Assembly (NCBI RefSeq): GCF_029953595.1
Contig: NZ_CP124535.1
Location: forward strand, 1,954,001 to 2,018,000
From: Fuscovulum ytuae
GTDB lineage: Bacteria > Pseudomonadota > Alphaproteobacteria > Rhodobacterales > Rhodobacteraceae
DNA length: 64,000 bases
Direction of reading: 5' to 3'
The notes below the pieces were generated by a model. It was not told where the DNA came from. It made no database searches and saw only the letters and a program-made list of their open reading frames with translations. Shown piece by piece: positions 44,335 through 58,210 of this stretch. A program made the translations under genes and the position numbers. The first letter of the stretch is position 1. Every line of letters begins with the position of its first letter.

Positions 44335-44790
44335 TCAGGTGATGCTTTCCAGCCGTTCCTTGGACATGTCGCCCGGCACGATGGTGATCGGGATGGGCAA
44401 GTTGCCGGAATTGCGGGTCATCTGGGTGACGAGGGGGCCGGGACCGGATTTATCCGTTCCTGCCCCAAGGACGAGGATGCCGATTTCGGGGTCTTCGTTC
44501 ACTTGGGCAAGGATTTCTACCACCGGGTCGCCTTCGCGGATCACGAGTTCGGGGTTGATGCCCTGCTTGTCGCGCATCCATTTGGCGAAAACCTCGAAAT
44601 GCGCCTCAATCCTTTCGCGGGCTTCGGCGCGCATGAGGTCGGCCACGCCCATCCAGTGCTGATATTCTTCCGGCGGGATGATGGACAATATGGTGACGCC
44701 GCCCCCGGTATGGGCGGCGCGGAGGGCTGCAAAGCGCATGGCGTTCAGGCATTCGCGCGTGTCGTCAAGGACGACAAGGAATTTCCGCAT
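44335..44790 (-). CDS. Universal stress protein
   Basis: A 151-aa single UspA domain. The N-terminal strand RKFLVVLDDT holds the ATP-side aspartate, and the C-terminal loop ILVLGAGTDKSGPGPLVTQM resembles the G-2x-G-9x-G nucleotide loop in modified form. GGGAG precedes ATG 44796 by zero bases and ATG 44790 by six, so I use 44790. The upstream space is filled by the four-hairpin array at 44842-44940. Confidence 0.88.
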   Translation of the reverse strand: MRKFLVVLDDTRECLNAMRFAALRAAHTGGGVTILSIIPPEEYQHWMGVADLMRAEARERIEAHFEVFAKWMRDKQGINPELVIREGDPVVEILAQVNEDPEIGILVLGAGTDKSGPGPLVTQMTRNSGNLPIPITIVPGDMSKERLESIT

Positions 44791-44841
44791 CTTCATCTCC
44801 CAAGACCGCGGTATCATGCCGGGGGGGCGGGTTCCGTGCAA

Positions 44842-44940
44842 GACGCGGTTTTTGACACAAAAACCGCGTCGGAATTTGACGCAAATTCCGGGGCCGGAAA
44901 CTGCGTCAGTTTCCGGCGCGAAATCTGCGTCAGATTTCGC
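44842..44940. repeat. Array of four contiguous perfect hairpins
   Basis: Stem-loops at 44842-44870 (13-bp stem, loop ACA), 44871-44889 (8 bp, ACG), 44893-44917 (11 bp, CGT) and 44918-44940 (10 bp, CGT). The centres TGACGCA and TGCGTCA are reverse complements. The array begins two bases after the aminotransferase stop and lies before uspA, both minus strand. Confidence 0.85.
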
Positions 44941-44942
44941 CG

Positions 44943-45809
44943 TTACACGGGCTGGGACGCGGCCCAATCCATGTAAAGGCCGCGAATCCGTTCTGTCATC
45001 GCGCGGGTCCGGTATTCGGTGCCGTCAAAGGCGCGCACGGAGGTCACCTTGGCGAAATTGCCAGACAGAAACACCTCATCCGCCTGATGCGCATCGTCAA
45101 AGGTCAGCACCGTCTCATAGACCGCGATCCCCGCCGCGCGGGCATTGGCGATGTGGCGGGCGCGGGTGATCCCGGCAAGGAAGGTGCCGTTTGGAATCGG
45201 CGTGAACAGCGCGCCGTCCTTGACCAGAAAGACATTCGCCGTCGCGCTTTCGGCAAGGTTGCCCATGGCATCGGCTACGAGCGCATTGCCGAAGCCCTTG
45301 GCCTTTGCCTCGACCAGCATACGCGCGTTGTTGGGGTAAAGGCAGCCCGCCTTGGCGTTGCAGACATTGTCTTCCAGAACCGGGCGGCGGAACCGGGTGC
45401 GGGTGACGGTGGTCTGGAAGGTGGCGGGCGGCATGGCCACCTGTTCAAGGCTGATGGCAAAGCCCGTCTTTCCCTCGGCCGGGGCGACGCCAAGGTCGGA
45501 CCCGTCGATCGCCCAATACATGGGCCGGATATAGACCGCCGCGCCGGGCGCATAGGCAGACAGGCCGTCGCGGATGATGGCCTCCATCTCGTCTGCCCCC
45601 ATCGTCGGGGTGATCATCAGGGCGCGCGCGCTGTCATTCACCCGCGCGCAATGTTTGGCAAGATCGGGGACCAGACCGTCGAACATCCGCGCGCCGTCAA
45701 AGACCGAAGACCCCTGCCAGATACCGTGATCGGCGGCCTTCATCACCGCCAGATCGCCGTCATGCCAGCGGCCTTCGAAATAGGTGCGGATATTGGTGCC
45801 GATGGTCAT
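44943..45809 (-). CDS. Branched-chain amino acid aminotransferase-like (class IV) protein
   Basis: A 288-aa fold-type IV PLP enzyme. GIWQGSSVFDGARMFDG, RPMYWA and EDNVCNAKAGCLYPNNAR are visible; the lysine in NAKAG is the likely PLP anchor and LAESATANVFLVKDGALFTP is the conserved substrate-phosphate region. It transaminates branched-chain amino acids with 2-oxoglutarate; an omega- or D-amino-acid transaminase of the same fold cannot be excluded. The four-hairpin array follows its stop codon. Confidence 0.85.
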   Translation of the reverse strand: MTIGTNIRTYFEGRWHDGDLAVMKAADHGIWQGSSVFDGARMFDGLVPDLAKHCARVNDSARALMITPTMGADEMEAIIRDGLSAYAPGAAVYIRPMYWAIDGSDLGVAPAEGKTGFAISLEQVAMPPATFQTTVTRTRFRRPVLEDNVCNAKAGCLYPNNARMLVEAKAKGFGNALVADAMGNLAESATANVFLVKDGALFTPIPNGTFLAGITRARHIANARAAGIAVYETVLTFDDAHQADEVFLSGNFAKVTSVRAFDGTEYRTRAMTERIRGLYMDWAASQPV

Positions 45810-50270: not shown

Positions 50271-50310
50271 GGGGGATGCAGAATTTTCATCCGAAAATTC
50301 TGCGCCCCCC
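50271..50310. terminator. Long hairpin after the acyl-CoA dehydrogenase
   Basis: GCAGAATTTTC (50278-50288), loop ATCC, GAAAATTCTGC (50293-50303): a perfect 11-bp stem, extended after a small internal loop by GGGGG (50271-50275) pairing with CCCCC (50306-50310). It starts four bases after the stop. No U-tract; likely an mRNA end or stabiliser structure. Confidence 0.65.
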
Positions 50311-57172: not shown

Positions 57173-57247
57173 CACGGAATTTGAACACAAATTCCGTGAC
57201 GGAAAATGCGCGCATTTTCCGCTGCGATTTCTGCGTGCAGAAATCGC
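57173..57247. repeat. Array of three contiguous hairpins
   Basis: Stem-loops at 57173-57198 (11-bp stem, loop AACA), 57200-57221 (a perfect 22-bp palindrome) and 57224-57247 (10-11 bp, loop CGTG or GT). It begins nine bases after the hydroxyacid dehydrogenase stop. The first stem CACGGAATTTG shares CGGAATTTG with hairpin two of the 44842 array. Confidence 0.82.
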
Positions 57248-57256
57248 CCCCCGGCA

Positions 57257-58210
57257 TCAGTTCACTCGGTTGGGAAGATCGCGCCCCTCCAGATGGGCGA
57301 TCAGGTTCTCGACCGCCATCATCCCCATATTCTCGCGCACCTCCAACGCCGCAGTGCCCAGATGGGGGAGCAGCGTGACATTCTCCATCGCCATCAAAGC
57401 GGGGGGAACCGTCGGCTCGAATTCATAGACATCAAGCCCCGCCCCCGCGATGCGGCCCTGCGCAAGCGCGGCGATCAGCGCCGCCTCATCCACCACATCG
57501 CCGCGCGCGATATTGACGAAGATGCCCGTGGGTTTCATCGCGGCGAAGGCGTCGGCATTGATGAGGTGATGGGTGGCCTTGCCCCCCGGCACCGCGACCA
57601 CCACGAAATCCTGCGCCATCGCCTCGGCCATGCCCACCTGCCGCGCGGGCAAACCCACATCTTCGACGGTGGAGCGGTTGTGGAACACCACCTCCATGCC
57701 AAAGCCGAAATGGCAGCGCCGTGCGATGGCCTTGCCGATCCGGCCCATCCCGATGATCCCCACAGACTTGCCCGACACGTGGGTGCCCAGCATCTGCGTC
57801 GGCCCCCAGCCGACCCAGTTCCCTGCGCGCAGGATACGCTCTCCCTCGCCCAGCCGCCGCGCCGTCATCAGGATAAGCGACAGCGCGATATCCGCCGTCG
57901 CATCCGTCACTGCACCGGGCGTGTTGCTGACCGCCACGCCCGCCGCGCGGGCCGCATCCACGTCGATATGGTTGTAACCAACCCCGAAATTCGCCAGCAA
58001 ACGGCAGCGCGGGGCAGGCACATCGGCAAACACCTCGGCCGAAAAACGGTCGCCCAGCGTGGGCATCACCGCATCATAATCGCGCAAGGCAGCGCGAAGC
58101 TCATCCGCCGTCAGAACCCGCGCCTCTTCCTCGCGCGAGGTGACATCAAACCGCGCTTTCGCGGCGGTCAGAACCCGCGCGGGCATCCGGCGCGTGATCA
58201 GAAGTTTCAT
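57257..58210 (-). CDS. D-2-hydroxyacid dehydrogenase (glyoxylate/hydroxypyruvate reductase type)
   Basis: A 317-aa NAD(P)-dependent enzyme. GIIGMGRIGKAIARR is the dinucleotide loop, VNIARGDVVDEAALI and LPHLGTAALEVR carry the catalytic arginine, glutamate and histidine region of the family. Length and ends match GhrB/glycerate dehydrogenases that reduce glyoxylate and hydroxypyruvate. It overlaps the csaA stop by one base (TGATG). Confidence 0.87.
   Translation of the reverse strand: MKLLITRRMPARVLTAAKARFDVTSREEEARVLTADELRAALRDYDAVMPTLGDRFSAEVFADVPAPRCRLLANFGVGYNHIDVDAARAAGVAVSNTPGAVTDATADIALSLILMTARRLGEGERILRAGNWVGWGPTQMLGTHVSGKSVGIIGMGRIGKAIARRCHFGFGMEVVFHNRSTVEDVGLPARQVGMAEAMAQDFVVVAVPGGKATHHLINADAFAAMKPTGIFVNIARGDVVDEAALIAALAQGRIAGAGLDVYEFEPTVPPALMAMENVTLLPHLGTAALEVRENMGMMAVENLIAHLEGRDLPNRVN

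Follow-up and report, generated by a model that had tools for sequence, protein, structure and literature searches.

The four hairpins at positions 44842–44940 of the window (the whole 64,000-nt stretch of the Fuscovulum ytuae genome analyzed here) are one copy of a dispersed, lineage-specific palindromic family with many copies per genome. On balance, we think it probable that this family is a REP/BIME-like element whose gene-end copies act as a putative structured mRNA 3' end, limiting decay and read-through.

Four perfect hairpins behind an aminotransferase gene

The array consists of four perfect hairpins with triloops and stems of 13, 9, 11, and 10 bp. An earlier note on this DNA had described the same four hairpins, and three of its stem lengths hold, whereas the second stem, given there as 8 bp, is 9 bp long. 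The centers (TGACACA, TGACGCA, TGCGTCA, and TGCGTCA) are as it gave them, and the stop codon that it placed two bases away is the TAA at 44943–44945 on the minus strand. Base 44870 is common to the hairpins at 44842–44870 and 44870–44890, and the gaps between the remaining neighbors are 2 and 0 bases. Read along the aminotransferase transcript, two TGACGCA-centered hairpins are followed by TGCGTCA and TGTGTCA centers, i.e. two doublets face to face (Table 1).

The hairpins of the array exceed chance. Folding z-scores are −7.9 (RNA, minus strand), −7.4 (RNA, plus strand), and −8.8 (DNA), and in each of these three folds 0 of 200 shuffles were as stable as the array. Four separate hairpins are obtained in the DNA fold only, both RNA minimum-energy folds re-pairing parts of two hairpins into a longer stem. 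When the cluster finder was run on the loci of 77 relatives, it returned 6 of 77 in the forward sequence versus no clusters in the reversed (uncomplemented) sequence. A search of the array against Rfam 15 gave nine matches up to E 10, all under the gathering scores of their families. The array is flanked on one side by the aminotransferase stop and on the other by a block upstream of usp, recognizable in empty relatives too. By eye, we take this block to be a putative usp promoter; a consensus scan did not call a promoter at these positions.

Table 1. Features of the array and its surroundings, in window coordinates
Feature	Position	Strand	Description
Hairpin 1 (aminotransferase side)	44918–44940	−	10-bp stem GCGAAATCTG, loop CGT (plus), apex TG-ACG-CA (minus)
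Hairpin 2	44893–44917	−	11-bp stem GCCGGAAACTG, loop CGT (plus), apex TG-ACG-CA (minus)
Hairpin 3, opposite orientation	44870–44890	−	9-bp stem, loop ACG (plus), minus-strand apex TG-CGT-CA
Hairpin 4, opposite orientation	44842–44870	−	13-bp stem, loop ACA (plus), minus-strand apex TG-TGT-CA
Class-IV aminotransferase gene (PF01063)	44943–45809	−	stop two bases from array
Universal stress protein gene usp (PF00582)	44335–44796	−	downstream of array
Block upstream of usp	44813–44842	−	TTGCAC, 17 nt, CATGAT; resembles block in empty relatives
Second array of TGACGCA-type family	57173–57247	−	three hairpins, four-base loops

Distribution of the family

In 947,657 bases of the F. ytuae genome we counted 37 clusters with 131 hairpins, which is biased as a per-genome number because these bases are 23% of the genome and include many stretches fetched around pattern hits; a few of the clusters hold only two hairpins, and those at 479802 and 480074 were counted separately though they look like the two ends of one expanded element. 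A previous count of the TGACGCA type had given 10 clusters, nine in 864,000 bases scanned and one in locus L002. The window itself holds a second array, unmentioned in the earlier note, which sits 9 bp beyond the stop codon of a 2-hydroxyacid dehydrogenase gene (57257–58210). The pattern CGNNNNYTGACGCARNNNNCG, which demands no symmetry, matches exactly 64 times across the whole genome, versus 0 for the reversed control; of the 55 exact places listed, 49 form perfect palindromes.

Within the genus, 18 of 19 genomes (F. ytuae included) have 11–152 exact CGNNNNYTGACGCARNNNNCG matches, versus 0–3 in the reversed control; the exception is G304, a 1.5-Mb genome with one match. Most genomes of the genus hold dozens of these hairpins. 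Our Rhodobacteraceae sample comprised 295 genomes (F. ytuae, one congener, and 293 others), and among these 293 only G277 (16 matches) and G007 (13) exceed seven. G277, which belongs to another genus, displays four hairpins in each of the five clusters read, and its congener G312 has five pattern matches, two of them forming one opposed pair. The 13 hits in G007, again from another genus, are 2 forward and 11 reverse, versus one in the control. A longer pattern was found 31 times in F. ytuae and zero to three times in each other genome of a set of 244 drawn from the order, all of which belong to the same family, making this coverage within the family. A literature search (best matches in the open-licence PMC literature) found no description of a TGACGCA-apex palindrome family in Rhodobacteraceae. 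Further such arrays, on whose existence the earlier note had made its reading depend, are therefore present in this genome and in its relatives, and the likeness to a BIME that it proposed is right in kind, the array being one of many copies, mostly at gene ends.

Anatomy of the element

The element follows the plan [H+][H+]-spacer-[H-][H-], where each H is a stem closed by TG-ACG-CA. In four genomes, 62 of 98 clusters have four recognized hairpins. The doublet pitch is 24–25 nt between hairpins, and the spacer between doublets has a median length of 18 nt in these 62 clusters, with extremes of 0 and 121 nt. In clusters with three or more hairpins, any given 10-mer is found in three spacers at most; internal sequence is not shared between copies by this comparison, and a MITE with a common core was rejected.

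A perfect 9-bp stem is present in 304 of 326 triloop hairpins, with few intermediates; the set contains 56 distinct stems, in which five of the nine pairs vary freely. Read inward, the loop is ACG in 246 of these hairpins, GCG in 39, and ACA in 26; the hairpins were selected with a TG...CA center, which makes part of the conservation a matter of construction. Stem identity within the 62 four-hairpin arrays depends on position: out of 124 comparisons of each kind, stems are identical in 1 between adjacent hairpins (8.9 expected), in 5 between mirror-image hairpins (15.0 expected), and in 16 between the remaining pairs (10.9 expected), the expectation coming from shuffles within genome and slot and some sites being orthologous between genomes. 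By genome, the adjacent plus mirror deficit is 1 versus 7.85 in G000 and 1 versus 10.5 in G295, and it is unclear in G296 (4 versus 5.1). At an AMP-binding gene, the first and fourth hairpins of the G104 and G305 arrays have the same stem, CGAAATC. A single hairpin with stem CGAAATC stands in the array's place in G298 and G310, which we read as a probable collapse between identical arms.

Kissing loops between the complementary ACG (left) and CGT (right) apices were rejected, as 139 complementary pairs were seen versus 142.7 expected and the loops do not co-vary. Parts of the element are expanded in tandem at C1:150417–150734 (L170) and C1:479802–480123 (L171) of the F. ytuae genome, with repeat units of ∼67 and ∼46 bp, respectively, as in expanded BIMEs.

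Occupied, decayed, and empty sites

Four orthologous sites are polymorphic, with the element in some species and an empty site in others. The aminotransferase has an orthologue in 15 of the 19 genus genomes, the other four having distant relatives only. Behind these 15 orthologues, the array is intact, partial, or decayed in 10 (decayed in G303, G310, G297, and G301), and the site is empty in G306, G296, G311, and G309, which show the four lowest protein identities of the 15 (82–86%). In G299, the aminotransferase stop is followed by another palindrome pair, CCCCGGACTTGATCCGGGG and CCCGGGTCAAGCCCGGG (L011 and L309), where relatives have the array; it resembles what we take to be a common alphaproteobacterial REP type. 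At the dehydrogenase site, 7 of 17 genomes have the TGACGCA type (one decayed, one expanded), 5 have an unrelated two-hairpin family (AAAATTCTT/AAGAATTTT), and 5 are empty. Among the loci listed, the nitroreductase site has the element in 8 of 14 (L273, which is partial, and distant paralogues left out), and the AMP-binding site has at least one hairpin in 8 of 16, is possibly decayed in one more, and lacks the element in 7 (the truncated L295 left out). Judged from these comparisons, empty sites together with copies at many loci indicate that the element spreads or has spread.

Covarying stems, which the earlier note had proposed looking for, are present at the orthologous aminotransferase site. 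In the left half (10 sequences, nine distinct), 96.1% of cells are paired, versus 15–57% for slid structures. Four pairs changed on both sides, versus 2.4 in shuffles (reached by 25 of 500), with 11 double-change cells versus 3.7 (0 of 500). In the right half (alignment A2, six of the same sequences, with G297 left out for an indel and G301, G303, and G310 for fusion or loss of hairpins 3 and 4), 97.5% of cells are paired; two pairs changed on both sides versus 0.8 in shuffles (58 of 500), with three cells versus 0.8 (5 of 500). This covariation supports maintained pairing, which may reflect either RNA selection or homogenization of the arms by template switching. Mismatch types were compared as a possible sign of selection at the RNA level: sense-oriented clusters had six G-U versus five A-C in a scan that also counted junctions between adjacent hairpins, and the 326-hairpin set, in inward orientation, gave 10 of the G-T type versus 4 of the A-C type, too few to favor either side.

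Placement at gene ends and stop codons

We classified 36 clusters by their flanking genes: co-directional pairs flank 17, convergent pairs 16, and divergent pairs 3; one further cluster overlaps a small predicted ORF. Ordinary gaps of at least 60 bp comprise 230 co-directional, 51 convergent, and 106 divergent cases, giving a convergent excess (Fisher p = 1.7e-5) and a divergent deficit (p = 0.0096); gene calls come from a custom codon-score method, and array-bearing gaps are among those used for comparison. When a flanking stop is present, 23 of 33 clusters overlap it or lie within 6 nt of it, versus 7.9 expected for uniform placement in the same gaps. A stop is found at the hairpin's TGA or within ∼6 nt of its foot in 62 of the 98 clusters, and the apex TGA itself was assigned as the gene's stop in 24, where stops were assigned from the coding score, which left 20 of 196 sides without one.

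The AMP-binding gene suggests how a repeat may have taken over a gene's stop codon. In element-free relatives, this gene stops one or two residues past a conserved ...[W/R]F. Such a stop is kept in G104 and G305, with the element behind it. In G000, G297, and G295, the early stop is missing, and the reading frame runs on for about five more codons, up to the hairpin's TGA. In L266 (G310), the final 25 bases of the nitroreductase gene occur three times in tandem, immediately ahead of the first hairpin. Canonical terminators follow 1 of 13 array-bearing gene ends versus 37 of 319 others, no difference in these small numbers.

Relationship to known repeats

The members of the family are extragenic, palindromic, short, similar, and present in many copies, features that define REPs broadly in the available part of PMC12306157. 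As described in the available part of PMC3733652, REPs tagged CGTC or GTAG are short palindromes, often paired in opposite orientation; they are found between genes that are co-directional or convergent, a short distance past stop codons. REPs of two families are reported there to follow genes closely, and GTAG REPs may supply the stop codon. The TGACGCA-type family shares with them the opposed short palindromes, the placement at gene ends behind stops, and the supply of stop codons. In contrast to these REPs, it has no enriched unpaired terminal tag, its constant part is the apex TG-ACG-CA, its unit has four hairpins, and its stems combine perfect pairing with great variability. Over 196 flanks, the 8 nt directly preceding the outer hairpins show no enrichment of end tags: GTAG was seen 5 times (4.5 expected), CGTC 4 (3.5), and the variants TGTC 0 (1.9) and CCTC 3 (2.2). 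CGTC is present inside the loop region TGCGTCA. A GTAG- or CGTC-tagged REP was rejected on these flanks.

The element also resembles a REPIN, which, in the part of Bertels and Rainey (2011; PMC3116915) available, has two inverted units around a less conserved spacer, with compensatory changes. Unlike in a REPIN, each unit is a doublet of complete hairpins and no associated RAYT (Y1 transposase) was found in the 19 genus genomes.

The enterobacterial BIME is a mosaic in which repeat units alternate and are occasionally expanded in tandem. Our family likewise alternates its units and is occasionally expanded (150417–150734 and 479802–480123 in the F. ytuae genome), but no linker sequence is seen to be shared between copies; to our knowledge, it is without the enterobacterial REP core. 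Compared at the sequence level, the family is best read as REP/BIME-like in the broad class, as probably outside the tagged superfamilies, and as having an anatomy and signature of its own.

Possible roles and origins

The most economical role, we infer, would be that of a structured 3' end of the mRNA, which would limit decay and read-through. An ancestor of the carrier species would have acquired this copy in the short interval that separates the aminotransferase stop from the block upstream of usp, and copies would persist behind stop codons because reading frame and promoter are both spared there. Transcribed as the 3' end of the mRNA, the stacked hairpins would probably hinder 3'-to-5' exonucleases and lower the read-through that enters the next unit; an in-frame TGA could serve as a back-up stop. 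Against this role stand the RNA folds, which are not four separate hairpins, the three clusters between divergent genes, the canonical terminators, whose frequency did not differ between array-bearing and other gene ends in small numbers, and the decayed copies at orthologous sites, by which the element is dispensable.

A neutral repeat tolerated at gene ends would account for nearly as much. That the family is a selfish or neutral dispersed repeat, its stems kept perfect by DNA polymerase template switching between the arms, is a genuine possibility, even if we lean against it. Empty, decayed, and collapsed sites among sister species point that way, as do the 304 of 326 triloop hairpins with perfect 9-bp stems and few intermediates, and an unrelated hairpin family at the same site in 5 of 17 genomes. 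Template switching has been described as creating and maintaining RNA hairpins (available part of PMC8794818). The concentration of 23 of 33 clusters within 6 nt of stops argues against neutrality, but a bias of tolerated insertion could also give it.

We are more doubtful about a bidirectional terminator or insulator, whether through hairpins lacking a U-tract or through polymerase pausing for Rho. The excess between convergent genes, the deficit between divergent ones, and the position of the array behind one gene and ahead of the block upstream of the next would be expected of such an element, but no U-tract is seen as a constant feature of the unit, both terminator-like sites called here are built on parts of the array (shuffles average 0.5), and canonical terminators are not detectably replaced at array gene ends.

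More speculatively, and in our view rather improbably, the family could be a transposase-free lineage of four-hairpin elements that share one apex signature and rely on replication template switching both to spread and to keep their stems perfect. Copies would survive only while neighboring and mirror stems differ, because those with identical stems collapse. If true, this reading would explain the heterodimer preference published for REPs. According to the available part of that report (Di Nocera et al., 2013; PMC3733652), heterodimers are common among REPs, their preference has no obvious explanation and may reflect escape from enzymatic degradation (SbcCD is named), and CGTC-type REPs, including those of alphaproteobacteria, have no known dedicated transposase.

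With many copies per genome, 19 related genomes, and sites that are occupied, collapsed, or empty, the present family is a compact case for studying both the lack of a known dedicated enzyme and the preference for non-identical partners. It offers a measurable rule of non-identical stems and an apparent instance of a repeat taking over a gene's stop codon.

A DNA (cruciform) or RNA binding site for a protein reading the TGACGCA apex is unlikely: read inward, 246 of 326 hairpins have an ACG loop, with free variation at five of the nine stem pairs, but loops vary too (GCG in 39, ACA in 26, four-base loops elsewhere) and the TG...CA selection makes part of the conservation by construction. Least probable of all is a REPIN-like element moved by a RAYT or other Y1 transposase, the REP-type enzyme that the earlier note had suggested as a binding partner, since inverted units around a variable spacer are as in REPINs (available part of PMC3116915) but Y1_Tnp (PF01797) has no match in the F. 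ytuae genome and one below the cut-off across the 19 genus genomes, in a search whose positive control matched in 5 of 14 named genomes, and GTAG is not enriched at the edges.

Other hairpin families in the same genome

Long perfect stems are in excess in 864,000 bases, comprising the window plus 40 other stretches of the same genome: stems of at least 9 bp number 40 with 3-base loops and 53 with 4-base loops, versus 7 and 5, respectively, in one Markov control. The excess is spread over several hairpin types. A second family has AAGAATTTT/AAAATTCTT-type stems in pairs or triples, with copies at L083:16095–16199, L102:863–967, and L105:11175–11284; in the window it has one copy (50278–50303), a lone hairpin located 11 bases past the stop codon of an acyl-CoA dehydrogenase gene. 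It occupies the orthologous dehydrogenase site in G303, G310, G299, G311, and G306, two unrelated hairpin families thus using the same gene-end site in sister species. Palindromes with GGATGGGC arms were seen at L080:14098, L083:10579, L106:9237, L110:14168, and L114:4870, and the one in L110 lies inside the spacer of a TGACGCA-type array.
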